The position numbers and the translations under genes are program-made. Below, in pieces: positions 11,437-49,225 of a stretch of 64,000 bases of DNA (position 1 is the stretch's first letter; the number at the start of each line of letters is the position of its first letter). Origin of the DNA: Ochrobactrum quorumnocens (GTDB taxonomy: Bacteria > Pseudomonadota > Alphaproteobacteria > Rhizobiales > Rhizobiaceae); contig NZ_CP022603.1 of NCBI RefSeq assembly GCF_002278035.1, positions 1,059,501-1,123,500 on the forward strand, read 5' to 3'. The notes under the pieces were generated by a model. That model was not told the DNA's origin. It worked only from the letters and a program-made list of their open reading frames with translations, and did not search any database.

Positions 11437-11461
11437 TCGAAGCGGTACAGCGGCTCCAGCT

Positions 11462-11524
11462 GAGCTGAAATTACTGGGAACGCTGTAACTATTTGTTTTT
11501 ACGCATTATCCACCGCAAATCAAA
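11462..11524. repeat. Short intergenic repeat, copy 2 (partial)
   Basis: It shares GGAACGCTGTAACTATTTGTTTTTACGC-type sequence with the copies at 3,231 and 56,655 but is cut off after CCGCAAAT, directly against the following terminator. Confidence 0.6.
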
Positions 11525-11547
11525 AAGGGCGCGATCATCGCGCCCTT
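11522..11547 (-). terminator. Rho-independent terminator of the L,D-transpeptidase gene
   Basis: A perfect 9-bp stem (AAGGGCGCG / CGCGCCCTT) with a 5-nt loop is followed on the minus strand by a run of T. It lies 9 bp from the transpeptidase stop and may also stop the VOC transcript from the other side. Confidence 0.85.
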
Positions 11548-11555
11548 GTTTACAT

Positions 11556-12302: not shown

Positions 12303-12481
12303 TCAAAAACTCTTTCATCTGCACGACTTGAAACCACGTGCCTTCCAAACTGGAATACACGCCGGCGAATGTGTGCCGAGAAAGAAGAGGCCAAACTTAA
12401 GTCAGCCTTAAGAAAACAACATAATCTGCAACTTACGTGCAATCTGCGAGCAATCACGAGGCAATCAACTGATGACTGTTG

Positions 12482-28858: not shown

Positions 28859-29119
28859 CCCGACGAGCGAGGCGAGTTGGTGCGTTGGACGCTCGCTTCG
28901 AGTGTCAGTTTTCAGGCGGCGTGGTTGTTATCGGCAATGGCCAAAATGGGGTCAAAAGCTGACGTTCAGTCGACCCGAGTTAAGCTAGCATTTAGACGTT
29001 AACCAATCGTGCCAAATTGCTGTAAATTGGATTGCATTTCGCAGCTAAACCATTGAATCACAAAGGACGTGAAATGCATTATTTTGCAGAATAGCCATTA
29101 TATATCAATATATTGGCTG

Positions 29120-29184
29120 GGACTCTAACTCCGCTAGTCTTGGTTCGAATCCAGGCACCCCAGCCAATTGTTTTCATTAGATAC
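29120..29184. repeat. Island attachment site, outer (right) copy
   Basis: About 65 bp resemble the tRNA-Gln 3' half plus its downstream ATTGTTTTCATTAGATA, with five mismatches, including CTA in place of the anticodon CTG. TTGGCTGGGACTCT precedes it, as at the middle copy. It marks the outer end of the island and is not a tRNA gene, since the 5' half is missing. Confidence 0.85.
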
Positions 29185-29197
29185 TCTCCGAAACAGA

Positions 29198-30078: not shown

Positions 30079-30239
30079 AACAAGTTAGAGCGTTTTGCAG
30101 ATCTTTTTGCAAACTTTGTTCTGCTTTCGAGCTTTCTTATTGCTGATTCTGCCAGATTCGGATCACGGTTGAGGTAGTGTGCATCCAGGATTGAGCGCAC
30201 ATCGCGAAGGCTATGTAATACGAACACGCTCACAGAGCG

Positions 30240-30419
30240 TTACCATTTTGTCACCTCATATTTTAGATGAAGTTCGCGCATGCTGACCAAAACAGGCTGA
30301 GCGCTCACAGGGCGGATCATTGCCCATCCCTCAGCTATCGTCATGACGCGTGCCGGACGATTTGTTTCGCGTTCCATCAGCCGACTGCCCGGCCTTGCCT
30401 TTCGGATTCGATCAGACAT
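30240..30419 (-). CDS. Small hypothetical protein
   Basis: The 59-residue basic protein (MSDRIRKARPGSRLMERETNRPARVMTIAEGWAM, split here in description) has GGGAG about 9 nt before its start. The sequence has the flavour of short conserved Rhizobiales proteins, with an NRPARVM-AEG-AMIRP pattern, but no function is recognised. The longer frame to 30,458 adds residues before the ribosome binding site. Confidence 0.5.
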   Translation of the reverse strand: MSDRIRKARPGSRLMERETNRPARVMTIAEGWAMIRPVSAQPVLVSMRELHLKYEVTKW

Positions 30420-30837
30420 CGCCCATCGCTCCCGGCACTGAATTATGTTCAATGCCATCTAGCAACCGGCCCGTTGTGCCCTTGGATGCAGGATTCATAT
30501 AGACGACGCGTTCGCCATGAAATCCAGTTCCACCTTTAAGATTGTCCATTGTGCGGCTGAAAGAGATGAGCGGCTTTGTCTGGGTTTAGCATGAGCAGCT
30601 TTTATATTGACAACAATGCGTTGATTTTGGAGTCGTAAGATTAAATCCGGTTAGAAATTTTGCCAAACACTCGCTCAGCGCCGCGTAGGAACGCCTGGCT
30701 GAGAAGCTCGCCAAATAGCGTTGCGGCCTTATTTGCTATTAAGCAACATAGGGCGCATGCTGATTATCTCGGCAGCATGGGAAACGGGCGCTGTCGTTGA
30801 AGGGTAAGCCCCCTAGCTCGCAACAAAGGAGGACGCG
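30420..30837. other. Gene-free gap
   Basis: About 420 bp with no convincing gene or hairpin; it presumably holds the promoter of the following small operon. Confidence 0.5.
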
Positions 30838-31095
30838 ATGTCTTCCAACTATTTAGATGCCAGCAACATCAATATGATAACACGGCTGCTTAGAGAAGCA
30901 CGTCGTCCAGATGATCCCTCAGAGCTTAATAATAACGCAGCGCGGTTTCTGGTCCAAAAATTTAATGATGGAGTATGTGATGAGGGCCGTTTGCGGGTTG
31001 CATTGAAACGATTCCATTCTCGCAAAATCGCATTAAATGTTGCGGTCCAACGATGGGACAACGAGGGCGGCGCAGCAAAGAGAGAGCAAACATGA
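30838..31095 (+). CDS. Small hypothetical protein upstream of a DUF1488 gene
   Basis: The 85-residue soluble, charged and helical protein is preceded by an excellent AAAGGAGG ribosome binding site. The end of the gene overlaps the next start (ATGA). The opening MSSNYLDASNINMITRLL is echoed in MSSNIHLVDFHISNRIL of the gene at 32,212, suggesting that these are distant paralogues. Function unknown. Confidence 0.7.
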   Translation: MSSNYLDASNINMITRLLREARRPDDPSELNNNAARFLVQKFNDGVCDEGRLRVALKRFHSRKIALNVAVQRWDNEGGAAKREQT

Positions 31096-31355
31096 GTCTT
31101 TCATTTCCAAACGCCAGCAGAAGTTTCATCGATAGCCAAAACGGCGTACGCTTTATTGGCTATGATGGGATGATCTCTGTGCCCTTCTTGATAGACAAGA
31201 GCGCGCTCGAAACTGCTGGGCCAATAGCAAATACGGAAGCGTCATTTTTGTCTGCTTTCGATAGATCAAGAAAGTTAATCTATCGCGTTGCGTTCGAAAT
31301 ATACGCCCAGTCGCGACAGACATCTTATAAAATCACCGCGCGCAACATGGTTTAG
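31092..31355 (+). CDS. DUF1488 family protein
   Basis: The 87-residue protein shows the DUF1488 pattern: FPNASRSFIDSQNGVRFIGYDG, then ISVPFLIDKSALE and AFDRSRKLIYRVAFEIYAQ. The family is common in alpha- and betaproteobacteria and lacks a known function. ATG 31,092 overlaps the previous stop by 4 nt, so it is translationally coupled; the longer frame is discounted. Its 3' end overlaps a minus-strand small gene by 4 nt. Confidence 0.8.
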   Translation: MSLSFPNASRSFIDSQNGVRFIGYDGMISVPFLIDKSALETAGPIANTEASFLSAFDRSRKLIYRVAFEIYAQSRQTSYKITARNMV

Positions 31356-31531
31356 CTTGAAATAATACCGAATCGTAGGTTCAGATGATCATGATGAGGC
31401 TTGGCTGAGCGGCTTTCGGCAAACGAGAAATGCCATGCCGTTGCAAATTGCAGCTGCTTTTGAAGCCGCACCCTATTTTTACGGGTATCTCTGAGAGAGC
31501 GCAGAGTTTGAGTGTGTTCTTTATTTGTCAT
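31352..31531 (-). CDS. Small basic protein, 59 residues, unknown
   Basis: On the minus strand an ATG at 31,531 is preceded by GAGGAG 9 nt upstream and opens MTNKEHTQTLRSLRDTRKNR, then VRLQKQLQFATAWHFSF, ending at 31,352 and overlapping the DUF1488 stop tail to tail. It is rich in Arg, Lys and His. The strong ribosome binding site and tidy overlap support a real gene; no family recognised. Confidence 0.55.
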   Translation of the reverse strand: MTNKEHTQTLRSLRDTRKNRVRLQKQLQFATAWHFSFAESRSAKPHHDHLNLRFGIISS

Positions 31532-31631
31532 AATTGCGAACTCCTCTAGTGAGGAAACTGATACGGGATTGGATTACAATTAAAGTTATAGTCACCGCTC
31601 TGGAATGAGAATAGTTCTCCGGGCCTCAATG

Positions 31632-31985
31632 TCAGGCCGGGACAACGCTCATCAGTTGAACCGTGTATCCGCCTGTCACGGTCCCGCGTGTCGCACAGCC
31701 ACTTATGTGAGGATTGTCAACATCTCCCCAATAGGCTTGCGGAATGCAGATAAGAATTGGCCGATAAATAATCGTTTCAGCGCCGGCCTTGGCTGCCGCA
31801 ATGAAGGATTGAAGCTGAACTGCTTGTCCGGGCGGCAATGGCACGGTTTCCATATCAACAATGCGATAGCTATCTGCATACTCGACGGTTGATATTGTCC
31901 TGCCGCCATACTTCGTCTGACTGGTTGGAATCGTAAGCTGGGGATACGACGGCTGGAAGCAGATACGTGAAGGAAGATCGATCAT
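31632..31985 (-). CDS. Phage-type minor tail protein, probably truncated
   Basis: The 117-residue protein begins MIDLPSRICFQPSYPQLTIPTSQTK and has a beta-rich composition with SYRIVDMETVPLPPGQAVQLQSFIAAAKAG and IPQAYWGDV. This resembles small prophage tail-region proteins of Rhizobiales, in which the module is usually longer, so this may be a shortened version. It is isolated from other tail genes. Confidence 0.5.
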   Translation of the reverse strand: MIDLPSRICFQPSYPQLTIPTSQTKYGGRTISTVEYADSYRIVDMETVPLPPGQAVQLQSFIAAAKAGAETIIYRPILICIPQAYWGDVDNPHISGCATRGTVTGGYTVQLMSVVPA

Positions 31986-32211
31986 GGATTATCCTGTATA
32001 AAGGGAAAGTATTGGCGTGCCCACCGACTATTCAAGACCTCTGCTGGTAGGCTCATCAGATATAGCGGTGGAGTCTGCCTTTAAATGACCTCAATTGTTT
32101 TCTTGCTATCGAAACCGTTAAAGCCGATCCCTGATTGCCAGCACTATTTTTTCACTTGGAACTGCTGGCGCGGCTAAATAGTCCGTACCCGCAATCTGAA
32201 AGGAGGGCTTC

Positions 32212-32436
32212 ATGTCTTCCAATATCCATCTTGTCGATTTTCATATCAGCAACCGCATCCTTAACCAGATGATGGCTAAGGCTGGCTATGTGACACTAAG
32301 AATGAAACCGTTATCGGGGCCGCTCTTTCACCAGTCAAAATTAATCCTGGAGAATTTTATGGCGGGTGTCATGCGCGATCATCGCGTTGATATTGCTCCA
32401 TTGCCTGAAGCTACGTCAGCATATGGAACAGCCTAA
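32212..32436 (+). CDS. Small hypothetical protein
   Basis: The 74-residue protein is preceded by a strong AAAGGAGGG ribosome binding site. Its opening resembles that of the gene at 30,838. No function is recognised. The frame is short but well supported by its translation signal. Confidence 0.6.
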   Translation: MSSNIHLVDFHISNRILNQMMAKAGYVTLRMKPLSGPLFHQSKLILENFMAGVMRDHRVDIAPLPEATSAYGTA

Positions 32437-32733
32437 TTAGCTAAGCTTTATGGGGCGGGAATCTACCTTTCATAGGGGGCCGCCCGATATAAGTTTGTTA
32501 CAAATATTAGTGCCATCATGTCAGATTTCTAATTTAATAGTATGATTTTTCATAAATATAACTTGACAAATACCATTAAATGTATTAGATGTTGTTCATC
32601 GATATTTTCTTGTTGAGTTTTGCTTTATTGCGCATTTAGCACCGCGCCCTGAACGAACCCCCTTTAAAAATCGTTTTCACTTTGTGTCACGCAACTGCGT
32701 GCTGCTATCTATACTGCTATGAAAGGGTTCATT

Positions 32734-32943
32734 ATGACCACTGGCACAGTTAAATGGTTTAATTCCACAAAAGGCTTCGGCTTCATTCAGCCCGACAACG
32801 GCGGCGCTGATGCATTCGTTCATATCTCTGCCGTCGAGCGCGCCGGAATGCGCGAAATCGTCGAAGGCCAGAAGATTGGCTACGATTTGGAGCGCGACAT
32901 GAAGTCGGGCAAAATGTCTGCCTGCAACCTGCAGGCTGCATAA
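32734..32943 (+). CDS. cspA: Cold-shock protein, CspA family
   Basis: The 69-residue OB-fold RNA/DNA-binding protein has RNP1 (STKGFGFIQ) and RNP2 (DAFVHIS). Start at 32,734 gives the usual MTTGTVKWF; the longer frame from 32,719 adds five residues. It melts RNA structure and acts as an RNA chaperone. The long AT-rich stretch upstream fits the extended 5' leader typical of csp genes. A strong terminator follows about 65 bp on. Confidence 0.93.
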   Translation: MTTGTVKWFNSTKGFGFIQPDNGGADAFVHISAVERAGMREIVEGQKIGYDLERDMKSGKMSACNLQAA

Positions 32944-33006
32944 ATAGGTTTTCTTCTTTCCTTTGACCACGGATGTACTGGCACTGTTGAAAGAAGTTTA
33001 CTTTTG

Positions 33007-33033
33007 AGGTCAGGCGTTGCCTGACCTTTTTTT
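33007..33033 (+). terminator. Rho-independent terminator of the cold-shock gene
   Basis: AGGTCAGGC / GCCTGACCT, a perfect 9-bp stem with a 3-nt loop, followed by seven T. Confidence 0.92.
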
Positions 33034-33053
33034 ATTTCAAAAGGAATTCATTT

Positions 33054-33284
33054 ATGTCGATTGAAACGCAAACATTCTTCACAAAAGAGACGCTCTTTAA
33101 GCCAACATCGTCTGTTAAAGAGTCGATTGCTGATAGAGTAGATCGCACTGCTCGCTCCATACAACAAGTCGAGACGGATGCACGGATTGCAAAGACTCTC
33201 CGCCTGAGAAATGCTCGAATGGAATATGAACAGACTATTGTTCTGCCAGTTGCGAAAAAGAAGAGAACAAAGAAGTCACATTAG
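33054..33284 (+). CDS. Small basic hypothetical protein
   Basis: The 76-residue protein has AAGGAA about 8 nt upstream. It is helical, with a highly basic tail (KKKRTKKSH), suggesting nucleic-acid or membrane contact. It follows the csp terminator, so it has its own promoter. No family recognised. Confidence 0.55.
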   Translation: MSIETQTFFTKETLFKPTSSVKESIADRVDRTARSIQQVETDARIAKTLRLRNARMEYEQTIVLPVAKKKRTKKSH

Positions 33285-33358
33285 AGATCAGAAAAGTCGG
33301 AAACATACTCCCACAATGAAACGCTAACCATCCACCACGCAAACTGATAAGCGCATTT

Positions 33359-33382
33359 AAAACCCGACCGTAGCCGGGTTTT
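33359..33382. terminator. Terminator hairpin
   Basis: AAAACCCG / CGGGTTTT is an 8-bp stem with an 8-nt loop and T or A runs on both sides, so it could stop transcription from either direction: the small gene on the left and the decayed phage genes on the right. Confidence 0.75.
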
Positions 33383-33399
33383 ACAACCCAAGAATAAAT

Positions 33400-33798
33400 C
33401 TACTTCAAGTAACCTTTAAATTTTGAGTTGAGTAGATCTGCTTCACGTTCGCGCCGTTTTGTTTCCTCCCTGTCGCGTTACTGTTCTACCCCCTCGCCCG
33501 CGTCGTCTTCTGTTCAAATACGCGATCCATACGCTCGGTAAGCCCATCAATGCGGTTTGCAACGCTTTCGATGGCACACGATTTGCGAGGTCTGCTCCTG
33601 CATCCCAGCCTTTGTGGCGAATGTTTCGGCAGCCCGCAGGTTGTAGTCTGATAGCTCCTGCCTCGTCAGCGCGGCGAGTGCGGTTGTTGCATCGGCTTTG
33701 GCGGCGGTTTCGTTTCTAGCCGCATTAATCTTGCTGTCGACGTACTTCCAAAAGACAAACAGGAAGCCGACTGCGCCCCTGATTTCAGTGCCGATCAT
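33400..33798 (-). pseudogene. Frameshifted prophage coiled-coil protein
   Basis: Frame one gives a membrane segment (GAVGFLFVFWKYVDSKI) and a helical stretch to 33,547. After a one-base shift it continues as ESVANRIDGLTERMDRVFEQ, and after another shift as RDREETKRREREADLLNSKF to a stop at 33,400. Three frames joined make one long coiled coil similar in build to the 18,092 gene. At least two frameshifts show that it is dead. Confidence 0.65.
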
Positions 33799-33811
33799 TT
33801 CTCAGTATCCG

Positions 33812-33997
33812 TCACGGCCGTACCCCGCATAGCTTTTCTATTTTCTCATTCTCAGCCAGAATCTGACGCTTGGTTTCTGACGTGTCGTCATGACTTGCAT
33901 AGATTGCCCTCGCCACGTCACAGTAACTACCGCTTGTCGCGCATCCACTTAGCAAGCCGAGCGTCAACAGCACTGTCATCAAGACGGCCAACTTCAT
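33812..33997 (-). CDS. Rz1-like outer-membrane spanin lipoprotein
   Basis: The 61-residue protein starts with a lipoprotein signal (MKLAVLMTVLLTLGLLSGCATS, lipobox LSGC) followed by a short periplasmic helix with a second and third Cys. Phage Rz1 proteins fuse outer and inner membranes at lysis together with Rz. The gene overlaps the Rz-like gene in another frame, the classical Rz/Rz1 arrangement. It belongs to a decayed prophage, so activity is unlikely. Confidence 0.7.
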   Translation of the reverse strand: MKLAVLMTVLLTLGLLSGCATSGSYCDVARAIYASHDDTSETKRQILAENEKIEKLCGVRP

Positions 33998-34151
33998 TTT
34001 CTATCTTCCGTGCTTTGGTTACGGATCCTGCGTCGCGTGCGGTCTGGGCTGTTTTGCTGTCAGACCGGCCTTTGAGATACGCATTGACAAGGACGGTCAG
34101 CGCCGCAGCAATTGCCACGGCGTAGCCGGTAAGCTTGGAGCGTAGGGCCAA
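33927..34151 (-). CDS. Rz-like inner-membrane spanin
   Basis: The 74-residue protein has an N-terminal membrane anchor (TGYAVAIAAALTVLVNAYL) and then a polar helix (KGRSDSKTAQTARDAGSVTKARKIENE), the usual build of Rz-type i-spanins, here short. The 3' part overlaps the start of the Rz1-like gene in a different frame. It lies just downstream of the broken endolysin, the typical lysis order. Confidence 0.7.
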   Translation of the reverse strand: MALRSKLTGYAVAIAAALTVLVNAYLKGRSDSKTAQTARDAGSVTKARKIENEVGRLDDSAVDARLAKWMRDKR

Positions 34152-34159
34152 GAGCCAAG

Positions 34160-34923
34160 TTATGCCGCCCCCCTCTTCAGTTCCAGCCTGCCGCTATGCC
34201 AAAGCCAGAGGCCGCCACCCAAAGCAACCACGATCAAGGCAAAGGTCAGGAATGTCCATGGATTGGAAACTGTACCGATAAGTCCGGTAACAAACGTACC
34301 GCCGCCAGCTGCCACGATGGTCTGGACGGTCTTATCTTGCAGCAGTGGCACATCGTCAGGCTTGGCATCTTCGACAGATGCCGCCTTCATTTCGCGCGCT
34401 GCAGTGAGGCTGTCGAGGAAGTTGCGGTAATAGCCCGAGATCAGTGTGGCCTTATCGGTGCCGTTGACGGTGACGCGCGCGCTTTCCGGGTCGCCTTGCC
34501 CTTACCGAAAAAGTCACTCAGCTTTCGACCCGTGAACTTGCCCAGCAGCATACCTTCAAAGAGGATGCGGATCGCTGTTGCGAGTTCGAGCGCTTTCTCA
34601 GGCACATCAGCAATGCCGAACTTCTTATAATTGTCCTTGCCAGTGATCTGACGCAGGCGCCTGCCTCGATAAAGCCAACCGTCATTAGCGCCGTTGCTGC
34701 CCATGCGGCCGCCGTAGACCTTGTTTCAAGGGCTTGCGGATTGTTCACATAAGACTGAGCCGCAGCGATCAACGAGAAGCGTTTCGTCCATGTCTTTCGT
34801 ATTTGCGCCGCACTGGTGTAATTCAGGTTCTCGACAACCAGCTGCATCTTGCCGTCTGTCTCGTGGAAGACGGCCGCCAAAAGGCGCGAGCCTCGCATAT
34901 GCGAAGAACATTGTTTTGTTCAT
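34160..34923 (-). pseudogene. Broken GH19-type phage endolysin with C-terminal membrane segment
   Basis: Across several frames the minus strand reads MNKTMFFAYARLAPFGGRL, FHETDGKMQLVVENLNYTSA, WTKRFSLIAAAQSYVNNPQAL, then GSNGANDGWLYRGRR-LRQITGKDNYKKFGI, LLGKFTGRKLSDFFGKGK, and finally a hydrophobic tail from about residue 230 (FVTGLIGTVSNPWTFLTFALIVV). This is the chitinase/GH19-like lysozyme common in Rhizobiales prophages. At least three frameshifts have destroyed it; only the C-terminal membrane part (34,160-34,390) remains open. Confidence 0.72.
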
Positions 34924-34944
34924 TAGATTGTCCCGAAATTAGAT

Positions 34945-35084
34945 ACGACAGAGCGCCAGCATGTGATGGGCCGTGACAGTGTGATTTCTTGAGACTGTGA
35001 GAAGATTTACTTGCGCATCATCCCGAGCCCCCAGCTTGAAGCCGGTGCGCAGCCCCGGCGGACTTTGCGGTTGCCGGGGTTTTT
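34945..35084 (+). repeat. Prophage non-coding cassette, copy C, ending in a terminator hairpin
   Basis: CGTGACAGTGTGATTTC, GAGAAGATTTACTTGCGCATC, and CCCCGGC / GCCGGGG hairpin plus T run match copies A and B. As with copy A it lies upstream of, and points away from, phage lysis genes. Confidence 0.65.
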
Positions 35085-35542
35085 ATTTATCAAGAGCTCG
35101 ACTAACGTCGAACGGCGTTAAGATAAATGCGAATCAGTCTTAGTGCAGAACCTCGGTTAGCCCACGCTGCCGGGGTTTTTAATTAATTATTTGGCGCTAG
35201 CATCCTTCAGCGCTGATCGGTTCCTAAACACGAGAAAGCGTAGCCCTGGTTCAGTCGTTCCGCTGCCGGGCTTTTGTTTGTTCTGAGCCCGGTGTAAGCC
35301 TCTAAGGCACAATCCATCAATATAACGCGACTGGAGGTTTGTGCGGCCCCGGCTTTCTGAGAGGTCAGTCGGGGTCATCTTCATTGGAAATAGTTCCAAT
35401 CATAGCCTATGACTTCTATTTCGGCATGAAAACACCGCATCTAGGGCGGTTAAGTGGCACGTTCAACAAAATTTGAGGCTGTTAATTCAGCGGTTTTGGG
35501 GTAATACCCCCTCACGATAGATAGCAGCTTGGAAATGTTCAG
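35085..35542. other. Gene-free gap with degenerate hairpins
   Basis: About 460 bp. It contains another GCTGCCGGGGTTTTT string near 35,170 and CCGCTGCCGGGCTTTTG near 35,260, which look like leftover terminator arms of prophage transcripts. No gene is supported. Confidence 0.5.
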
Positions 35543-35650
35543 ATGGATTGGTTCATTGTAGTCTTCGTTACGTTTAAGGTTGTCGTGTTAGGCACGGGCA
35601 TGTTCTTCGCCATCAAGTGGCATCATGATCAAGCGAAGAAGCAGAAATAA
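35543..35650 (+). CDS. Putative 35-residue membrane protein
   Basis: ATG 35,543 opens a 35-residue frame (MDWFIVVFVTFKVVVLGT, then GMFFAIKWHHDQAKKQK) with one clear membrane helix and a basic tail. Ribosome binding is weak (TTGGAA upstream). The hydrophobic-then-basic pattern supports a genuine small protein, and a strong hairpin follows about 105 bp on. Confidence 0.5.
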   Translation: MDWFIVVFVTFKVVVLGTGMFFAIKWHHDQAKKQK

Positions 35651-35754
35651 CGAACCAAGCGGACTGTTATCGCCCACCGAACCCAAGCTCGCCCGCTCCT
35701 AATCCGGTGCACATACCCCGGATCGCCCGCCAGCATCCGGGGCTTATACATTGT

Positions 35755-35793
35755 GAGGCCGGAGCATCTGTTATGATGCTCCGGCCTCTTTGT
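35755..35793 (+). terminator. Strong terminator hairpin
   Basis: GAGGCCGGAGCATC / GATGCTCCGGCCTC forms a perfect 14-bp stem with a 6-nt loop followed by TTTGTC. It is the longest perfect hairpin noticed in this part of the window. Confidence 0.8.
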
Positions 35794-35968
35794 CATTGTT
35801 GCCACCATACACAGCAATGACGGGTGCAAATTGGTTGAGCCCATCGGGGCCAGAACTTTCGTTCGTAGAAAAGCATAACCCTTTGCACCTTAGAGGCATC
35901 GTCGCACCGTTGAGAGAGCTTCGCGCTCGTGTATAAGGGAGACCAGCCTCATAACTTATACTACGCGT

Positions 35969-36085
35969 TTTGTCGGCATCGAACGCCTCATTCTGGAGCC
36001 AACCGGTGGGTATGAACGGCGTGTTATTGAAGTTTTGCTTGCAGCACGGTTTCCGGTCGAGCGCCGATTGTTACGGGTTTATCAG
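35969..36085 (+). pseudogene. IS110-family transposase fragment
   Basis: A stretch of about 39 codons reads VGIERLILEPTGGYERRVIEVLL then AARFPVERRLLRVYQ. The EPTGGYER motif is characteristic of the DEDD domain of IS110-type transposases. It is cut off at both ends and abuts the truncated NRPS gene. Confidence 0.65.
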
Positions 36086-36089
36086 ATGT

Positions 36090-37159
36090 CACCCATGGTG
36101 GCGGTAACAGTTGCTTCAGTCGGGCCGTAGGCATTTAGAAGTAAGCGTCCGGGCTTTGTCCAACGGTTACCAGATTGAGGGACATGCTTCACCGCCGACC
36201 ATAAGGAGACGCAGCTTGGGGATGTCACTTTCAATGGAAGACAGCAATGTCGGGCTGCAAGCCATGCAGTTAATGTCGTTCTTACGTAGAAAATCTGCCC
36301 GTTCTTCGCCCACCAGAGTCAACGGACGTGGTGCGGGGATTACAGTGGTGGCTGCCACAAAGGACCCAGTATTCTTCAGCCGAGAAATCGAAGGCTATCG
36401 TCATGCCGTGGCAAACACGGTCGCTAGGCTTGTATCCATATGAAACTGCTGCGACACGCAGGCAGTTGCAAAAGCTTTGATGACGAATAAGAACACCTTT
36501 AGGCCGTCCAGTCGTACCCGACGTATAAAGAAGGTAGCAAATCTCGTCCAGATTAGCTGCTCCCGTGGCAACATCCGATCGAGCATTGGAATGCTGAGAA
36601 ATTTCCGTAGCGCAAGCGTCGATCAATATATGTGGAACAAGCATTTGTTCCACCCGTGCCAAATAAGCACGAAGCGAAATCACAAGCTTGACGGCGGCAT
36701 CATCAATGATGAGTGCCGTGCGATCTTCTGGAAAGGCTGTGGCGAGTGGCACATAGGCAGCACCCACCTTCATCACAGCCAGAAGGGTGATGTAAGTCTC
36801 GGCAGAGCGATCAAACAGCAAACCAATGCGATCGCCAGGCTTCACGCCATGCTCAATCAACAGTCGCGCGAACTGATTGGCGCGCTCATCAAGCTCCTTG
36901 TATGGCCACGACCGTCCGTCAGAAATGACCGCGACAGAGCCTGCAAACTTCTCTGCAAGCCTCTCAAAAAGATTTCAAGCCGCTCGCCCAGTTCACCGGC
37001 CAGAGCAAAATCCGCACCGAGCAAAACCTGCTGATGCAGCGCAGAAGCGCTTGAAGCATGAAGCGGCATGCCCACATTCAGTTCACTTGCGCTTACGTCA
37101 ATTTCATCATTTGTCGCTGCAATTTCATTCAAGCCAGCACCATTAGTACCGCGGCTCAT
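36090..37159 (-). pseudogene. Truncated NRPS adenylation-domain gene
   Basis: The minus strand starts MSRGTNGAGLNEIAATNDEI at 37,159 and, with frameshifts, continues through AETYITLLAVMKVGAAYVPL, the core motif YTSGTTGRPKGVLIRH, CMACSPTLLSS, LLMVGGEA and finally NAYGPTEATVTAT near 36,100. These are adenylation motifs A2 to A5 of non-ribosomal peptide synthetases (Pls/PosA-like). It has at least two frameshifts and lacks everything after A5, where the IS110 scrap begins. Dead gene; it once activated an amino acid. Confidence 0.75.
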
Positions 37160-41197: not shown

Positions 41198-42367
41198 ATG
41201 CGCAACAGGCCTGAGAGCGGCGCTGCAATTGCTGCTGCATTGGTGCTAATCATCGGCATGGGATTTGGCCGCTTTGCTTTTACTGGTCTCTATCCGCTTA
41301 TGGTTGCTGATGGGCAGATTTCTATTGAAGGCGGTTCTTATGCGGCGTCGACCAACTATGCCGGATATCTGATTGGGGCGTTGTTAGCAGTGCTACTCTC
41401 AGGTGTTTCAAGCCGCAAGTTATGCACCATCGCAACCGTGACCACGGTTATTGCTACCGCTTTGCTGGCTCTTCCTATCCCGGAATGGCTCATAATCATC
41501 ATCCGCGGCTTTGCCGGCCTTTTTAGCGCCATTTCGATGATTGCTGCTTCGCATTGGCTGATCCATGATCAAAGGCTGCATGACAGTGCTCCAGTACTTT
41601 ATTCAGGCGTGGGCATCGGCATTGTTGTTTCAGCGGAGATAATTGCGCTTAGCCATCTGGCGACGCTACCAAGCCATGCAATCTGGTTTATACTCGCGGT
41701 CGCAGCGCTCATACTAACAGTGACTGCTATCGCAATGCAGTGGATTTTGGAGCAACCATCCGCCCATCAGAACGCAGCAGCATCCGCCGCCGCCCAGAAG
41801 CAGTCTGATTCTTTTGGCCCGACACTGCTTGTTGCTGTTTATGGTTTAGCGGGCTTTGGTTACATCATCACAGCCACCTACCTACCGCTACTCGTTCGGA
41901 GTACGTTTGACGCGATTGATCCGGTGCATATCTGGGCGATTTTCGGCCTCGGAGCAGTGCCGTCGTGCTTTTTATGGCATTTTTTTCGCACACGATGGGG
42001 CAGTCGCGGGAGCCTTATGGTCAATCTCGCCGTACAGGCAATCGGGGTAGCCCTGCCGTTGCTGCATGTACCTGTCGCCTATATTGTCAGTGCATTGCTG
42101 GTTGGTGGCACTTTCATGGGAACGGTAACAATCGCTATGCCTGCGGCTCGTCATCTGAGCGCGAAAACCCGCGTCAACATGCTTGCAATTATGACCGCTT
42201 CCTATGGCGCGGGACAAATTATCGGCCCTCTTATGGCTAATGCACTATACGTGCGGACTTCATCCTTCGACGGCTCACTTATGGTCGCGGCTGCCGCTCT
42301 GATTGTTGGGGCTGTCCTCTGTCTCACTCCCAAATCATGGTCTTTGAATGAAGATACAACTGGCTAA
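41198..42367 (+). CDS. YbfB/YjiJ-family MFS transporter
   Basis: The 389-residue transporter has about twelve membrane helices and the family's GFGRFAFTGLYPLMVADGQ start with YAASTNYAGYLIGA, then GAGQIIGPLMANALY near the end. These transporters are exporters of unknown substrate, often paired with a LysR gene. Its stop overlaps that of the giant CapA/Mur gene tail to tail by 4 bp. Confidence 0.92.
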   Translation: MRNRPESGAAIAAALVLIIGMGFGRFAFTGLYPLMVADGQISIEGGSYAASTNYAGYLIGALLAVLLSGVSSRKLCTIATVTTVIATALLALPIPEWLIIIIRGFAGLFSAISMIAASHWLIHDQRLHDSAPVLYSGVGIGIVVSAEIIALSHLATLPSHAIWFILAVAALILTVTAIAMQWILEQPSAHQNAAASAAAQKQSDSFGPTLLVAVYGLAGFGYIITATYLPLLVRSTFDAIDPVHIWAIFGLGAVPSCFLWHFFRTRWGSRGSLMVNLAVQAIGVALPLLHVPVAYIVSALLVGGTFMGTVTIAMPAARHLSAKTRVNMLAIMTASYGAGQIIGPLMANALYVRTSSFDGSLMVAAAALIVGAVLCLTPKSWSLNEDTTG

Positions 42368-45300
42368 CCAGAGCCACTCACCACTTGCGCTGATCTAAGA
42401 GCCTGGACCGTGCGATGCAAACCACTGCCGTGGGCACCTTTGAACCACCAAACATCCCCATCGCGAATGTCGACCTTTAAGGTTTTATGTAGCTCCTCAA
42501 GTGTTTCAAGATAGCGTCCTCGCTTTGCCTCGGGCAGCTTTTGCCAGAATTCGCCATATGCTTCTCCCACGGCATAGACCTGCTCTATGGGAAGGTGAGC
42601 AATCACATGGGCAAGACGTGTATGAATGGCTTTTGAGTTTTGTCCAAGTTCAAGCATTTCGCCAAGAACCAGAACGCGCCGCGACGCTTTCATTTCTGCA
42701 GCAAGCGCCTCGGCCGCCGCCAACATTGCGATCGGAGCGGCGTTAAAGGCATCGTCGACGATCATTGCCTTGCCACCCAATGATGCAGAAACATAGAACG
42801 GTAAGCCGCGACCTGCGGGGGGAGACCATTGTTCCAGTATCTTCGCCGCGGCACGCCAATCCTCATGCGCCGCAGCCAGACAGGTCAATGTCCCCGCAAC
42901 ATTGACCGCCTGATGGCGTGCCCCCGGAATGAGCATCAGCTTAAATTGTTCATTTCCTATTTTATAATGGGCTTCACCAGACGAAGAATTAAAATCCGTC
43001 AGCCTCCAATCGGAAGCTTCGTGCGTTCCGTAGGTGACAATGTTCACGCCTTTGCGCTCGGCATGGCCCCTTACACGTTCGTAAAGCGTTGTGTCACGAC
43101 AGATCACGGCAGTACCATCAGGCTCGAGTGCCCGGAGAACTGCAGATTTCGCATCTGCAATCCCCTCGACCCCATTAAACGCTTCCAGATGCGCTTCTGA
43201 AATGTTGGTGACGATCGCTATATTAGGCCTGAGCACAGAAGCTGATCGGGTTGCGTGCCCGACAGCAACTTCCTGAACGAGGTGGCTATGCTGAGGCTTG
43301 AGCGCAGTCAGTGTGCGCATAACCCCCATAAACATGTTCTGATTACCCGTGGTACCCAATATTTCTTTATCTGTGTGTAGTCCTCTAAGAGTCGACAACA
43401 GCATGCTGTTGACGCTTGATTTGCCTGCACTTCCTGTAACGGCGAAACAAGTTCCTTTAAATGCGTCACGACGCATAATCGCGAGCGCCTTTGTGGTACT
43501 CGACCATTTTTTATCATGGATATGCGGTACATCTGAAAGCGGCTGTTCTGGTGAAACCCCTATGGTTGCCACGATAGATGCTTTGTGTTTTCGTAGCTGT
43601 GCTTGTGTCAGTCCCATAGGACCGTCTTCTGTTTGCACAATTGCAACCGATTGATCGTTTAACGTTTCAACCGAAAATGACACTGCATTAAATTCGACCG
43701 CATCACTGTTTTGAGACAGTCCACTATCCGGGCCTAATAGGCGCCTAATTTCTCCCAACGTTGAAGGGGCAGGATTGCTATTCTGTACCCGTTTAGACGC
43801 ATCTCTCAAAAGTTCGCATACGCTTCCAAAATCGGAATCACGTCGAGAACCTTTTACGAGCACAACATCATCTGGTTCCAATATAGGATAGAGAAACAGA
43901 GCCAGTTCTTTGGCCGTTGAAAAATGTGGTCCAAGAAGTTTGGAAGGCAGTTTCTCACGTAAAAAGCGCATTTCATCGCCGTGTGTGAGCACAATCTGGG
44001 GATGTGCCGTAAGCAGTGGTTCTGCAAGGCTTTCATGAAGTGGCTTGCCCATCTCTCCTAAATGCACAATGCGCCCCAGCACGGCGATTTTACGGCCTCT
44101 GTTCACTGGCGTGATTTTCTCGAGAACCGATATCGCATTGAGCATCGAACTGACTTCCGCATTCCAGCTATCATCGATAACCGTTGCAACGCCAGTGGAA
44201 AGAACCTGTACTGAAAACCGTTGCAGGCGGCCTGTCTGAACGGCCATATCTGACAGACTATGTGTCATCTTCGTGACGTCATGACCCATTGCATATAGGA
44301 CGCAAAGTGCGGTCATCGCATTCGTTATCATGCCATTGCCTGGCAACGGGACTTCTAGAATTCCCTCTAATCCCTCCGGTGTGCGAAACCAAATCGTACT
44401 TGTCTCATCATTCAGTTGCCGGTCGACGATACGCATTGTGGCGCGCTCACTCTCGCCGAAGATAATAACTTTCTTCGCATGAGCATTGGCTTTGGCCAAG
44501 ATGTCGTCAAAACAGGCAAGATGATCGCCAATAATCGCGACCGCCTTTCCAGTTAGCCCGTCGAAAATTCTCGATTTCCATTTTGCAACATCGCTAAGAG
44601 ATTTCACCCGGCGATCAGACTGAGACAGACCTATTTCTGTCACCAAAGCAATTGTCGGCTCAATGAGCCGCGTAACCGGACCTCTCTCCATCCAAAGGGC
44701 ACTTTGGGCAATTTCCACAATCGCTGCTTTGTGATCGAGTGAAAGATTTGCAAGCAGTGCCGGTGCACCGACACGTGAATTATAATTATCGTAACTAGAG
44801 AGAACCTGCAGATCCCTTCCGAGCATCTCGCGGATCATACTCACGGTCGTTGATTTACCAACAGTTCCGGTTACTGCGATGACATCATTCTTGTATCGCT
44901 GACGCGCAGCAATGCCCAACTCGATCAATGCTTTGATGGGATCTTGGACTTGCAAAAGTGGAAAATCACTCGACACGCCTGCAACTGGCTTGGAGACGAT
45001 TGCCCCCGCGAATGCCGACGCTTTCTTAACGAGCAAGCTATGTGTGTCCATGCCGGATCGCTTCGTGGATGAATATTGTTCATGGAATGCAAGATGTTCA
45101 AATTCCGATGCAACATACAGGGTTGGTTGGTCGACAAATTTTTTATGGATCATTCCACGGATAACGGAACGAACAAACCAGCCTGGCGGAGGTGTGACGA
45201 GCCATTTGCCACCTGTGACTGCAGCCAGCTGATCGGCGGTCCAAGTTTGACCGGATATGCAATCATTGATGCTATCGTTAAACTGCTGGCGGTAGGCCCT

Positions 45301-48300
45301 TGACTTTGGCGATGCCGCCACAGGCTCCTTCAGGACCGGTGTTGGAAGGTTGGGAACAGCCAGCTCAATATTAAAGGGCAGCACGAGTGGAGCAGCCTCA
45401 TAGCTTTTCGACACGATGCCAATGGATACTTGCAGATCAACATTTTCCCAGTCCTTCAAATATGGAGGACGTAATCCGTAGAAATCACGATAAATCTGTC
45501 CCGACTTCCATACGCTGGTTGGCACAAGCCAGTCGCATGGATCATGATCCATGGAACGACCCCAGGCGCGCATTCGTGTCGGCTTTACAGGGACAGCTTG
45601 AATGTCGAGCCGAATATCTTCATCGATTTGGCAATCAGCCCTCCAGAATGTTTCAACCCAAAGCATGCGTCGATCGGTAAATTTTTGCGGTGAAACGCGA
45701 AAACCCAGTAAGGTGAGTGGACCAATGTGGACCGGCGTAATGCGCGCATCACCTGGCACCACGTCCGGGGTCCAGCGTTTATCGAGTTGATAAGTCAGTG
45801 CATTTGGCAGACCAGAATTTTCACTGTTTGGGGTACCCCGATCAGTGGCAATACTCGGAGTAGAATGCGCCTCTGGTGAAAGAGACACTATTCCTCGCCC
45901 TGATGCGCTTACCTGCATTTGGGTGCCAGCAGTGAGACATTGTTTTGCAAACTCTTGTGCGGCTTCGCGTGCCCGGGGCCCCTCCAACTGGTGCGTTGTA
46001 CCAAAACCTCCAATAAGCGGTGTAAAGATAATGGTCTCTACGCCGTTGGAACTCACCTCTAGCGAGAACAACCCGGTTTTCGTAATTTTGCCCTGAATGG
46101 CATCAAACAAAAAGTCGCCCGCATCATGGATAATCGGGCGACCTTTATAGATTTCAATTTCTTGAAGCAGATGAGCCGATGCACCCAATACGGCATCAGC
46201 ACCCGCCTCTATGATCGCGTGGCCTACCGCTATTTCATCAGATGACGGCTCTGGTCTCAGATTTTCGCCCCAATGGACCGCAACAAGGACTACTTGTGCT
46301 CGCTTTCTGGCATCAGCGATCCTTGGAGCCAGCGTATCGATCCATGCTTGAGGATCATTCAACGGCAAGTGTGCAGAGCCTGCTGTACTTTTTGTTGCGG
46401 CAAAGCGATGTTGGGTCGCATCAACAGAGAATATCGCGACCTTCAGATCTCCAACTGGTTTAATGACGGGGCTAAAGGCAGCATTTAAGTTTTCACCCGT
46501 GCCTACTGATGAAATCCCCGCGTCTCTTAGAAACTCGGCCTGCTGTAGCAATGCTTGCGACCCATAATCTCCACTGTGATTATTCGCAGTGGCAACCACA
46601 TCGATCCCCACATGGGTCAGGAGTTCGAGCATCTGTGGCCGTGCTCGATAATAATATGGACCGCCCTCGCCTTTATTGACACCTTGCTCGCCCAGGGTTG
46701 AGACAACACACTCCAAATTAATAATTCGAAGATTTGCTTTTCTGAGCTCCGGGATATTCAATACATTTTCGAGACCCAATTCACTAAGACGATAATGTTG
46801 TCGACGACCAAGATTAACGTCCCCGCCCCAGGCAATGACCGGGCCTTTCGGGTGATGATCATCCACAATTGCGCCATCCAGCTCCCATGGAGCCTTCCAA
46901 TCGGGCCGCTTCAACCGATATTCTCGATACGCTATCAAACCTGAAAGATAGTGTTCAACATCGTCAATACGCACGCGAAATGCGTGATGTCGTATGAAAA
47001 AACTTCCTACCATTCGGGCCGGATTGGCAAAGAACATAGCGATTTCAGGCCAGAAGTGCCCGTTCGTGAGGTAATGCGCTCGAGTTTCGAGCGCATTGTA
47101 GAATTTTTTCTTATCAATGATCGTTAGGAGGCTGCTCAGTGAACTGTCCGCTTCGAGCCGCGCAATCATTTGTTGTGCCGCCATCATGAGCTCAAGCAAA
47201 GTCGGAAACGTGGTAATCCGCTCAGTCACGAAATCCAGATAGTCGGCAAAATTCTTCAGTCCAAACTCGTAATAGCGACGTTCGGGCCGGTAGCGCGTGA
47301 GTTCGTTGACCGCATATGCAAGCCAATGATCATGCGCTTTCCAGTGATCGGCAGCGATAAAATAGTCGAAGGCTCGTTCAACACAACGAAGCCATCTCGG
47401 GTCTTTGGTTTGCGCATAAAGCCGCAGTAATCCAAAGGCGGCTTCACCATCATAGTAAATAGTTCTGAAACCGGCCTTCACGTCTAATTTGGGATACTGC
47501 AGAACATGGGCGAACTGCCCTGTTTGAGAATCCTGCATAGCGCAGATCGCGAGGGCCAATTGTTCAAGAAGAACATTATAACGCGACGTTTGATGCAACT
47601 CGCTATATTTAACGAGAGCCAGCAAGCAGACCGCATTTCCGCCTAGCTTCACCTCATTCTGTGCGTCGACAAGAACGGCCATTTTCTCGCCCTGATGATC
47701 CAGAGTCTTAATCAGCTTATCAGTCAGATAAGAAAGACCGCGTTCAATGGCTTCTCCAAGCTCACTATCACGCGTAACCTCATAAGCCTCGATCATCGCA
47801 TAAAGCGAGCTTGCGTGGCGCAACGCATTGTAAGTCTTGATCTCATGATCAAAACAAGGGTGCCAGCCATAGATGAAGCGGCCACTCTCCAAAGTCTGGG
47901 AAGCGAGATAACGGCTTCCTCCCGCGATCAACTGATCGATATCGTTTAACTGAAGTGCTTCTATATTCCGGCGCCCGCAATTCGATCCATGCCCTGTAAT
48001 CCTGTAGATTGTGGAATCATTAGATGTGAGAAAAACACCTGCCGTGGAAAAGCGAAAGACCGCGTCTTCATCTGAGAGTGCAAGTTTATCTTTGCCATGG
48101 CGCAGCTTTAGATAACGACCAAAGTTTCCGGTGTTAAAGACACCGTTTGCGGCGTTGCCCCCGCCATAAAGAATTGCATTTGCATTAAGTTCCGCCTCAA
48201 GAAAGGCGATGTCAAACTGCTGATCGAACGCAATACCATATCTGAAGTAGTTGCGTTTTGTGGCTTCAATCTGTGACTTGAGCTTTTGCCACGTCAGAAC

Positions 48301-48561
48301 TTCAACATTGTTTGGCCACTCGATACGAAGCCATTCAACTTTAAGCGTATTGGATAACAGCTCTTGTTTAGCTTTTTCTATGAGAGCTTTCCAGCAATCC
48401 TCTAAGCTTGCAGCAGAAGCGTTCACGGTTATTGCGCGATGCTTTCCATCGGTCATAGAGAGGAACAGTGTGTGGGAAGGAAAAGCGCCAGTTAAAGAAA
48501 CGTATTTTGTAAAGACAGCTTGTTTGGCGCGTTCTAATAGATGCACAAAATTGGCTTGCAT
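42364..48561 (-). CDS. Giant multidomain protein: helical toroid-like region, CapA domain and two Mur-ligase modules
   Basis: One uninterrupted frame of 2,065 residues from ATG 48,561 (GGGGAAG 7 nt upstream). No signal peptide or membrane helix, so cytosolic. Order: an unrecognised region (1-200); a helix-rich segment like an alpha/alpha toroid with Tyr/Trp/His-rich turns (205-555); a CapA/PgsA-type domain (573-895) with GGDVNLG, NLECVVS, NNHSGDYG, HWGE and GASAH motifs; a beta-rich linker (918-1070); Mur ligase module 1 (about 1105-1590, P-loop TGTVGKST near 1231); Mur ligase module 2 (about 1600-2065, P-loop TGSAGKSS near 1709, with NISEAHLE and K in DAKSAVL). Mur ligases form amide bonds with ATP; CapA and Mur-type PgsB normally make poly-gamma-glutamate in separate proteins. 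A fused peptide-polymer synthase is my inference. No PgsC-like membrane gene is adjacent. Confidence 0.85.
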   Translation of the reverse strand: MQANFVHLLERAKQAVFTKYVSLTGAFPSHTLFLSMTDGKHRAITVNASAASLEDCWKALIEKAKQELLSNTLKVEWLRIEWPNNVEVLTWQKLKSQIEATKRNYFRYGIAFDQQFDIAFLEAELNANAILYGGGNAANGVFNTGNFGRYLKLRHGKDKLALSDEDAVFRFSTAGVFLTSNDSTIYRITGHGSNCGRRNIEALQLNDIDQLIAGGSRYLASQTLESGRFIYGWHPCFDHEIKTYNALRHASSLYAMIEAYEVTRDSELGEAIERGLSYLTDKLIKTLDHQGEKMAVLVDAQNEVKLGGNAVCLLALVKYSELHQTSRYNVLLEQLALAICAMQDSQTGQFAHVLQYPKLDVKAGFRTIYYDGEAAFGLLRLYAQTKDPRWLRCVERAFDYFIAADHWKAHDHWLAYAVNELTRYRPERRYYEFGLKNFADYLDFVTERITTFPTLLELMMAAQQMIARLEADSSLSSLLTIIDKKKFYNALETRAHYLTNGHFWPEIAMFFANPARMVGSFFIRHHAFRVRIDDVEHYLSGLIAYREYRLKRPDWKAPWELDGAIVDDHHPKGPVIAWGGDVNLGRRQHYRLSELGLENVLNIPELRKANLRIINLECVVSTLGEQGVNKGEGGPYYYRARPQMLELLTHVGIDVVATANNHSGDYGSQALLQQAEFLRDAGISSVGTGENLNAAFSPVIKPVGDLKVAIFSVDATQHRFAATKSTAGSAHLPLNDPQAWIDTLAPRIADARKRAQVVLVAVHWGENLRPEPSSDEIAVGHAIIEAGADAVLGASAHLLQEIEIYKGRPIIHDAGDFLFDAIQGKITKTGLFSLEVSSNGVETIIFTPLIGGFGTTHQLEGPRAREAAQEFAKQCLTAGTQMQVSASGRGIVSLSPEAHSTPSIATDRGTPNSENSGLPNALTYQLDKRWTPDVVPGDARITPVHIGPLTLLGFRVSPQKFTDRRMLWVETFWRADCQIDEDIRLDIQAVPVKPTRMRAWGRSMDHDPCDWLVPTSVWKSGQIYRDFYGLRPPYLKDWENVDLQVSIGIVSKSYEAAPLVLPFNIELAVPNLPTPVLKEPVAASPKSRAYRQQFNDSINDCISGQTWTADQLAAVTGGKWLVTPPPGWFVRSVIRGMIHKKFVDQPTLYVASEFEHLAFHEQYSSTKRSGMDTHSLLVKKASAFAGAIVSKPVAGVSSDFPLLQVQDPIKALIELGIAARQRYKNDVIAVTGTVGKSTTVSMIREMLGRDLQVLSSYDNYNSRVGAPALLANLSLDHKAAIVEIAQSALWMERGPVTRLIEPTIALVTEIGLSQSDRRVKSLSDVAKWKSRIFDGLTGKAVAIIGDHLACFDDILAKANAHAKKVIIFGESERATMRIVDRQLNDETSTIWFRTPEGLEGILEVPLPGNGMITNAMTALCVLYAMGHDVTKMTHSLSDMAVQTGRLQRFSVQVLSTGVATVIDDSWNAEVSSMLNAISVLEKITPVNRGRKIAVLGRIVHLGEMGKPLHESLAEPLLTAHPQIVLTHGDEMRFLREKLPSKLLGPHFSTAKELALFLYPILEPDDVVLVKGSRRDSDFGSVCELLRDASKRVQNSNPAPSTLGEIRRLLGPDSGLSQNSDAVEFNAVSFSVETLNDQSVAIVQTEDGPMGLTQAQLRKHKASIVATIGVSPEQPLSDVPHIHDKKWSSTTKALAIMRRDAFKGTCFAVTGSAGKSSVNSMLLSTLRGLHTDKEILGTTGNQNMFMGVMRTLTALKPQHSHLVQEVAVGHATRSASVLRPNIAIVTNISEAHLEAFNGVEGIADAKSAVLRALEPDGTAVICRDTTLYERVRGHAERKGVNIVTYGTHEASDWRLTDFNSSSGEAHYKIGNEQFKLMLIPGARHQAVNVAGTLTCLAAAHEDWRAAAKILEQWSPPAGRGLPFYVSASLGGKAMIVDDAFNAAPIAMLAAAEALAAEMKASRRVLVLGEMLELGQNSKAIHTRLAHVIAHLPIEQVYAVGEAYGEFWQKLPEAKRGRYLETLEELHKTLKVDIRDGDVWWFKGAHGSGLHRTVQALRSAQVVSGSG

Positions 48562-49225
48562 GCTCTCTTCCCCATTATGCATTTAAACCACGTTAAAAGG
48601 GCATTGAACCGTAGGATCCTCTTCTTCGTCTTTCACTTTGGTGTTGTCAGGAACCATTCATCTGAATTTATTTCACCTTTTGGCATATTAGCCAACGTGA
48701 AACCCTTCACCTAAGTTAAAAATCAAGCGCAACACTTGTTTCTGGACCATTGAGTGAAGGTGTTAGTTTGTGGAAAACGAACTAATTCGCTGATTTGACT
48801 CAAACATAGCGGGCAAGGCTTCCGGATTTCTTACAGTCTAAATGTGATGTGGGAACGCGAAGTGACCGCCTCTGATATTTAGCTCAAGTCGCGGAAGTCG
48901 ATGCTCAGGCCGACAAAATCCGAGATCGTAGACCGAGCTGCGGAATTATTTGCCCGGCATGGCTTCACGCATACATTCTTGCAACAAATAGCAAACTGGC
49001 TTACTGAGTAAAAATATCTCTCGCCTTGTGAAACATACACGCTCATGGAACGGCCATGGGAAACGTCGAAATGCGTGCATTGGAACAACTTCTGCAACTT
49101 TCGGCATTCGTAGAAATTAACATCTACTCACATCATAATTTTGAGTATTTGATTCCAATCAATGCCGTTTAGATCGGATTTCAGCATACCCTTGGCTATT
49201 CCTATATCTTTGGGGGCTAAGGCAC
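48562..49225. other. Long gap holding the giant gene's promoter and a regulator remnant
   Basis: About 660 bp. The left part is AT-rich and should hold the giant gene's promoter. A decayed TetR N-terminus lies at 48,901-49,011. No other gene is supported. Confidence 0.6.
48901..49011 (+). pseudogene. TetR-family regulator, N-terminal remnant
   Basis: From ATG 48,901 the frame reads MLRPTKSEIVDRAAELFARH then GFTHTFLQQIANWLTE and stops. This is the first half of a TetR helix-turn-helix (AAELFARHGF-T-T-LQQIA); the rest is missing or frameshifted. Confidence 0.6.

Follow-up and report, generated by a model that had tools for sequence, protein, structure and literature searches.

Ochrobactrum quorumnocens encodes a 2,065-residue multi-domain protein whose N-terminal unit, termed NT, is very probably linked to giant adhesins carrying alternating aspartate tracts, (Asp-X)n, judging from genome and gene-neighbourhood comparisons. 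The gene is located on the minus strand at positions 42364..48561 of the window, a 64,000-nucleotide stretch of contig NZ_CP022603.1. NT comprises a terminal cap (N) and a toroid-like region (T), and is followed by a CapA domain (C), a linker (X in the domain layouts below) and two modules resembling MurF (M1 and M2). With moderate confidence, this fusion is interpreted as a cytoplasmic machine modifying giant adhesins, secreted or surface-bound, at their (Asp-X)n tracts. An earlier sequence-only reading had suggested a soluble assembly line making an unknown peptide-like or glycopeptide product; the protein does look like a soluble multi-ligase protein, but a free product is not borne out, given the association of NT with Asp-X adhesins. 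Biofilm adhesins are known to contain long Asp-Ala and Ser-Asp tracts; what the Asp-Ala tracts are for, and the cause of an anomalous gel mass in one case, were left open (PMC5588039). NT provides a direct handle on it, being an unnamed conserved enzyme family that accompanies Asp-X tracts in both Pseudomonadota and Bacillota.

Co-occurrence of NT and Asp-Ala tracts in genomes

The link was assessed in four genome samples, which have a few genomes in common, with one tract query (166 residues, from the window's own genome) and one NT profile (alignment A2). A match of at least 85% identity was taken as an Asp-Ala tract, a threshold set after the matches had been inspected, though one with broad gaps around it; the lowest accepted and highest excluded identities were 95% and 26% in the genus, 92% and 59% in the organism's own family, 86% and 68% in the phylum, and 89% and 53% in the family of a Variovorax genome (G413). 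Within the genus (35 genomes), the tract was found in 9/9 genomes with NT, counting one with a broken copy (G002, an 85% complete assembly), versus 1/26 without; an eleventh tract match, in G028, was excluded. The corresponding figures were 9/16 versus 0/231 in the own family (247 genomes), 6/14 versus 0/384 in the phylum (398 genomes) and 7/10 versus 0/289 in the Variovorax family (299 genomes). One-sided Fisher tests, which ignore kinship, gave p values of 1.4e-7, 1.4e-12, 5.6e-10 and 3.0e-12 for the four samples in the same order. In the own family, the tract was within about 11 kb of NT in eight of the nine tract genomes, the ninth being that of the window, and among 18 further sub-threshold matches those in G341, G483 and G526 were beside NT, with the Asp alternation checked in G341 only. 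Further matches numbered 29 in the phylum, where those in G200 and G341 lay within 12 kb of NT and the remainder were in genomes lacking NT, and three (about 50% identity) in the Variovorax family, where that of G683 was near NT.

Asp-X adhesins encoded beside NT

The same association is visible among neighbouring genes. A set of 79 loci was examined, made up of 78 kept of 118 relatives found in genome contigs and the own-genome locus (L001). Of the 5,440 frames in these loci, 26 encode a tract of at least ten Asp-X units; they are spread over 24 loci, with many contigs stopping within the flanks. The partner residue is mostly Ala, though mixed in five loci (L012, L069, L122, L126 and L146) and Ser in L066 and G200 (in L145, 917 Ser of 941); Asp is constant across tracts, while its partner is Ala, Ser or Gly. 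The tract of L061 is pure Asp-Ala (425/425). In L144, a protein encoded directly upstream of NT (7786-10956, then NT at 10998-12737) carries 88 Asp-Gly units and one Asp-Ala unit (G341, 88/89).

Several of these loci are organized as secretion operons. In Sphingobium faniae (L056), Pfam identifies in order a BapA_N adhesin, an outer-membrane efflux protein (TolC), an ABC exporter, HlyD, an NT-C-X-M1 protein and an ATP-grasp protein, followed by an alpha/beta hydrolase and a 622-residue protein without Pfam match. A Microbulbifer locus (L004) additionally encodes a transglutaminase-like protein and a 2OG-Fe(II) oxygenase, the latter a real Pfam match. In several operons (L056, L074, L079), NT directly follows HlyD.

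NT is also present on plasmids, with relatives in 54 of 72,556 plasmid-collection records. Nine of these neighbourhoods were opened, and in eight an Asp-X tract protein was encoded near NT, at ten units in L122-L126 and at eight units in L160-L162. Four of them (L122, L160, L161 and L162) have NT directly after a tract protein with an LPXTG-type anchor at its end. Since NT in Gram-positives thus accompanies anchored adhesins, it is the adhesin, and not the type I exporter, to which NT is linked, and a role tied solely to type I secretion was rejected. A Mur ligase gene follows NT in Staphylococcus simulans and S. haemolyticus. Other details of these plasmids concern individual loci. In the Listeria locus L162, a surface protein (6612-8828) with a 316-residue, mainly Asp-Ala tract is followed by NT alone (8893-10560); in S. 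epidermidis L161 (4082-10437), NT is annotated as hypothetical and lies between sdrF, which it follows directly, and a glycosyltransferase gene. In the Staphylococcus lugdunensis plasmid of L160, the annotation splits the Mur ligase that follows NT into two short parts (10432-11298). The whole 13.5 kb S. haemolyticus plasmid of L126 is largely taken up by NT, a Mur ligase and one adhesin with an Asp-Ala/Asp-Ser tract, suggesting that the NT system moves as a unit.

These neighbourhoods bear on the possibility that the fusion is a free natural-product assembly line, releasing a soluble peptide or glycopeptide that contains D-amino acids, with the adhesin neighbourhood reflecting biofilm regulation only. 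Such an origin would account for the variation of ligase number and kind across species, as in natural-product clusters, and for the polyketide synthase and condensation-domain genes near one copy (L124). However, it leaves unexplained both the genome-wide co-occurrence of NT with the tract and the position of NT beside Asp-X adhesins in Gram-positives, sometimes with no adjacent ligase, and is considered improbable.

The presumed client in the window's genome

The genome of the window encodes two BapA_N proteins. That of contig C3 contains a 170-residue tract, in which Asp is partnered by 84 Ala and one Ser, and the genes that follow it fall into the same clusters as TolC, ABC and HlyD genes from other operons. 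The codons of this tract are mixed (44 GAT and 41 GAC for Asp, and four Ala codons); it therefore seems to be kept as a protein sequence and not as a mere DNA microsatellite. The second BapA_N protein (C4, 3,051 aa) has no tract. The C3 protein is the likely client of the fusion protein. Inspection by eye of 16 kb beyond the HlyD end of the C3 operon showed no NT gene, and the NT profile matches two places in the genome: one is the fusion, the other an NT gene that stands by itself on C2 (1453760-1455493; L089/L090). This second gene encodes 577 aa and has an 86% identical copy in Brucella rhizosphaerae (L057).

NT as the constant part of a modular family

NT is, by its distribution among domain layouts, the constant part of a modular family and a key part rather than an accessory one. 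In the window, N (residues 1-118, 48229..48582, minus strand; residue numbers refer throughout to the longest, 2,072-residue frame) is conserved in NT relatives and has no Pfam match up to E = 1; T occupies residues 119-572 (46867..48228, minus strand). Among the 79 loci, 75 frames contain more than 350 residues of T, and a profile search returned 924 NT relatives at E<=1e-20 among 8,000 candidates scored. The most frequent layout is NT-C-X-M, and NT-C-X-M-M, NT-M, NT alone and C-X-M alone also occur. In three relatives (P0138, L150, L153), NT is fused to a YheCD-type ATP-grasp domain, and some longer relatives have ATP-grasp and acylphosphatase parts. Amide ligases are the commoner fusion partners seen. 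L145 (3239-6409 and 11392-19998) instead joins NT to a GT4 glycosyltransferase, and upstream of this fusion are secretion genes and the gene for a giant protein with an Asp-Ser tract. Four relatives (P0203, P0210, P0161 and P0248) have about 200 residues after NT that resemble an aspartyl-hydroxylase-type oxygenase by eye, though Pfam finds nothing in P0203. NT relatives also occur in 8 of 50,697 phage-collection records (H95-H102; Listeria phage, Acinetobacter phage and Bacteriophage sp.), which may be host pieces.

The N-terminal region had been described as toroid-like and unlike known PgsB partners. No curated family covers NT; its probable ring shape rests on weak matches to several barrel-type families and on no structure. 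Pfam matches of NT are all sub-threshold, and among 22 A2 members are chiefly to GH76 (6), GH88 (4), GH127 (3) and C5-epimerase (2), all toroid-type enzymes; of five NT proteins scanned with NCBIfam, two gave sub-threshold matches, to a cellobiose 2-epimerase and LanM. None of these six families matched NT above its curated cut-off, PHROGs returned nothing for the two NT proteins scanned, and a PDB profile search with NT gave two weak matches, neither convincing. The database name 'poly(glycerol-phosphate) alpha-glucosyltransferase' for NT was rejected, since no glycosyltransferase family is present among the Pfam, PHROG and NCBIfam matches. In 19 NT sequences from Pseudomonadota and Bacillota, 60 columns are invariant, including D418-H419-W420 and R536-V-R-I-D540-D541..H544.

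This conservation is relevant to the idea that NT is a non-catalytic carrier that keeps acidic tracts unfolded for export, while cross-links made by the ligases tie the tract to stem peptides of peptidoglycan or to further copies of the adhesin. The placement of NT straight after HlyD, the many invariant Arg, Lys and His residues that could bind poly-Asp, and the MurF-like character of the modules are in keeping with it. A carrier should have no obvious need for the invariant acidic and His residues of the DHW and RVRIDD..H motifs, which have the look of an active site, and only a slim chance is given to this explanation.

The weak matches of T bear on another alternative, in which NT works on glycans, as a glycosidase, epimerase or transferase, the tract protein is a glycoprotein, and the Mur and CapA parts act on a glycan-attached amino sugar or peptide. 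The recurrent matches are indeed to carbohydrate enzymes, a glycosyltransferase gene adjoins the sdrF-NT pair of L161, and Pls carries glycans on its Ser-Asp repeats (PMC5230774). However, the pure Asp-Ala (L061) and near-pure Asp-Gly (L144) tracts offer no hydroxyl acceptor, the window protein has no glycosyltransferase family match, and NT is more often fused to amide ligases. This alternative is regarded as unlikely; the main reason to retain a sugar-based reading is that the GT4 fusion lies close to an Asp-Ser tract, which makes L145 a possible sugar variant of the system.

CapA domain, linker and Mur modules

Above cut-off, Pfam finds in the fusion PGA_cap (CapA) at residues 583-827 together with Mur_ligase_M and Mur_ligase_C, two stretches of each, consistent with the earlier description of CapA and two P-loop Mur modules in one chain. 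The CapA domain (residues 573-830; 46093..46866, minus strand) scores 192.9 bits with PF09587, and its sole relatives in the PDB at E<=0.001 are three MslH sequences. MslH is a lasso-peptide epimerase of CapA fold that works at the peptide C-terminus and for which eight residues, forming the metal ligands and two His/Asp dyads, are given (PMC10406935). Six of the eight, Glu44, Asn87, His88, Asp91, His259 and His295, align with E624, N668, H669, D672, H770 and H804 of the window protein; alignment A1 (61 rows) has 40 rows covering the CapA domain, and at least 39 of these conserve any one of the six. The metal ligand His261 is replaced by G772 (Gly in 38/40 rows), and the equivalent of Asp11, which lies beyond the aligned stretch, is probably D588 (kept in 38/40). 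Epimerase activity of the CapA domain is thus plausible from residue conservation. The linker (residues 831-1095; 45298..46092, minus strand) is conserved after CapA in relatives and belongs to no known family, Pfam finding nothing from about residue 830 to 1165.

M1 (residues 1096-1605; 43768..45297, minus strand) and M2 (residues 1606-2072; 42367..43767, minus strand) both match MurF chains best in the PDB. Scanned singly, M1 scores best with the MurF model TIGR01143 (218.3 bits versus a cut-off of 288.6), while M2 scores 215.4 bits with NF010693 and 211.7 with TIGR01143; the 422.4 bits that the whole protein reaches with TIGR01143 result only from summing the two modules. MurF thus resembles both modules most, but each is below its cut-off, M1 lacks the AHL His, and the genome has a MurF of its own that scores 378.2 bits. 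A housekeeping role in peptidoglycan synthesis was rejected, as five further Mur-type ligase genes are present elsewhere in the genome, on C3, one of which is MurF by model and the others MurC, MurD, MurE and FolC by eye only.

Active-site motifs were compared in an alignment of M1, M2, the genome's MurF and 51 other modules (48 of 71 found in the loci and three from plasmid loci). The P-loop GK[S/T] is intact in M1 and M2 alike, as is the lysine in the motif of 'A..K..I[FL]' type, and M1 also keeps the conserved Glu and DDSWNA. As the sequence-only reading had noted, M1 lacks a hallmark that M2 retains: IGLSQS in M1 stands against ISEAHL in M2, placing Gln where M2 and MurF have the AHL His. 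Gln occupies this position in 26 of 31 CapA-linked first modules aligned (as TQY in L032 and L035), and the His is kept in the other five (the second copy of L003, L029, L047, L054 and L055), of which L054 is additionally without the motif lysine. The His is present in all 16 of the modules labelled M2. In a 30-row tree, M1 falls inside a 10-row clade (100/100) and M2 pairs with a Halomonas second module (100/100); because the tree puts each in a separate, fully supported group, M2 is, on this tree, not a recent copy of M1. All modules grouped with MurF weakly (81/64), and several tree rows are long branches.

The possibility that poly-gamma-glutamate machinery of the PgsBCA type has been fused into one chain, to which the CapA domain would point, can be set aside as most improbable. 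Both modules match MurF best (a direct comparison with PgsB was not run), no PgsC-like gene is present among the nine neighbouring proteins scanned (a genome-wide search was not made), and no hydrophobic segment is present to anchor CapA. Nothing in the fusion protein resembles a membrane helix, its top 19-residue Kyte-Doolittle mean being 1.36; signal-peptide prediction was not part of this check. The sequence-only reading had likewise noted neither a membrane helix nor a PgsC-like gene nearby.

Proposed modification of the adhesin tract

The acceptor would be a ribosomally made protein, because NT adjoins or co-occurs with Asp-X adhesins in two phyla, in several cases in one operon with the adhesin's secretion genes, and the tract is probably the direct substrate of the enzyme set. 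Its carboxylates would be the natural acceptors, since Asp is the sole constant feature and Ala and Gly provide no side-chain chemistry. Mur ligases form an acyl phosphate on a carboxylate and then join an amine to it. NT would recognise the tract and probably act first on it, or present it. The MurF-like modules would then use ATP to activate carboxylates, most simply those of Asp side chains or of the end of a residue added earlier, and join to them an amine in the form of an amino acid or dipeptide. That the modules perform amide ligation on tract Asp is given somewhat less than an even chance. CapA may invert the newest added residue, as MslH acts at a peptide C-terminus, and the adhesin would be exported by type I secretion after its modification; variation in the number and type of ligases would fit side chains of differing length. 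The residue added, the order of steps and catalysis by NT are conjecture. A fuller proposal, offered tentatively and more easily doubted than accepted, is that Mur ligases, together with the epimerase-like CapA and the unclassified toroid enzyme, extend the aspartates of ribosomally made (Asp-X)n tracts with isopeptide side chains, producing comb-like, cyanophycin-like branched adhesins in Gram-negative and Gram-positive bacteria, with branch length set by the number of ligase modules. If this is true, Mur ligases are able to act on proteins. We know of no precedent for this, nor of any described system coupling Mur ligases to protein tracts; a literature search, light on subscription journals, returned no title or abstract describing NT or Mur ligases acting on adhesins.

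A number of observations, in addition to the GT4 fusion of L145, which favours sugar chemistry there, weigh against a tract-modifying role. In the window's genome, the presumed client and the fusion are on different contigs. The NT copy of G002 is interrupted by stops, and G022 (72% complete) has a 48-residue tract with no NT found. Looser Asp-rich matches are present in NT-free genomes of the phylum (G095, 68%; G072, 66%), as are matches of about 50% identity in those of the Variovorax family (G842 and G924). Conversely, 4/16, 6/14 and 2/10 of the NT-containing genomes of the own family, phylum and Variovorax family have no tract at any identity, for which the loss of repeats from draft assemblies may be responsible. 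On the ninth plasmid, from Acinetobacter (L127), the giant protein of type I secretion type has no tract in the part fetched; a CapA gene lies two frames past NT. Lastly, no ligase is encoded next to NT in Listeria L162 and S. epidermidis L161, so that ligases are not obligatory and NT, rather than the ligases, is suggested as the minimal unit.

Comparison with known systems

By function alone, the system could be ranked with dedicated modification of adhesin repeats. SdgA/SdgB and GtfC/GtfD are glycosyltransferases dedicated to staphylococcal Ser-Asp repeat adhesins, and GtfC/GtfD are encoded beside the adhesin (PMC5230774, PMC3794999). NT is likewise encoded near a tract adhesin in the plasmid neighbourhoods described above, and both systems concern dipeptide repeats. 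They differ in that SdgA/SdgB and GtfC/GtfD act as glycosyltransferases on Ser-Asp repeats, whereas the window protein lacks any glycosyltransferase match and the tract of its presumed client is Asp-Ala, with one Ser in 170 residues.

Acidic proteins often migrate high in gels. BapA of Paracoccus denitrificans, with 891 Asp-Ala repeats and type I secretion by BapBCD, runs at more than 300 kDa, whereas the calculated mass is 212, and a modification could not be excluded by the authors (PMC5588039). This gel mass lends modification weak support. BapA is the same kind of adhesin as the C3 client, with type I secretion genes adjoining in both cases, but no modifying enzyme is named in the available text (PMC5588039). 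The available parts of two further papers cover BapA biology with nothing on the tract (PMC13235738) and describe no CapA system (PMC2922099).

In the cyanophycin synthetase CphA, the Mur-type part makes an amide at the Asp side chain. CphA is a multi-domain ligase whose product has an Asp backbone with Arg side branches (PMC9427784). The proposed system would resemble it as a multi-domain ligase yielding a branched polymer on Asp, but CphA builds its own backbone, whereas here the backbone would be ribosomal; furthermore, the window protein has no ATP-grasp match, though some relatives carry such a domain.

Gene structure and surroundings

The fusion is encoded by a single long open reading frame (window 42364-48582, minus strand), which gives 2,072 aa from ATG 48582. 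The start proposed earlier, ATG 48561, is the better one, with GGGGAAGAGAGC immediately 5' of it, and yields the 2,065 aa described. The frame is not an assembly artefact, because full-length relatives occur in independent assemblies: nine of 2,056-2,141 aa (P0002-P0006, P0008, P0010, P0014 and P0015) share 45-97% identity at 97-100% query coverage, and that of Brucella rhizosphaerae (L002) is 84% identical over query residues 2-2067. A search for the full-length architecture across genomes and an assembly fusion as a possible flaw had both been raised by the earlier reading; the relatives found answer the first and rule out the second.

The gene is solitary, with no operon. A convergent MFS-type gene shares 4 bp with it, and 643 bp separate the 5' end of the longest frame from divergent cytochrome c genes, which were judged unrelated since L002 is the one other clustered locus that has them. 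Neighbour clustering placed sugar-ABC ATPases of one broad cluster in 13 loci, mainly of Variovorax, and their presence near NT may reflect the general abundance of such genes. Elsewhere in the window, a 7.4 kb stretch (28859-36281) has no frame of at least 150 aa and no Rfam match. It includes transposase-like fragments, judged by eye (29279-30078), and just past it, on the minus strand (36282-36860), is a fragment that by eye resembles an adenylation domain.

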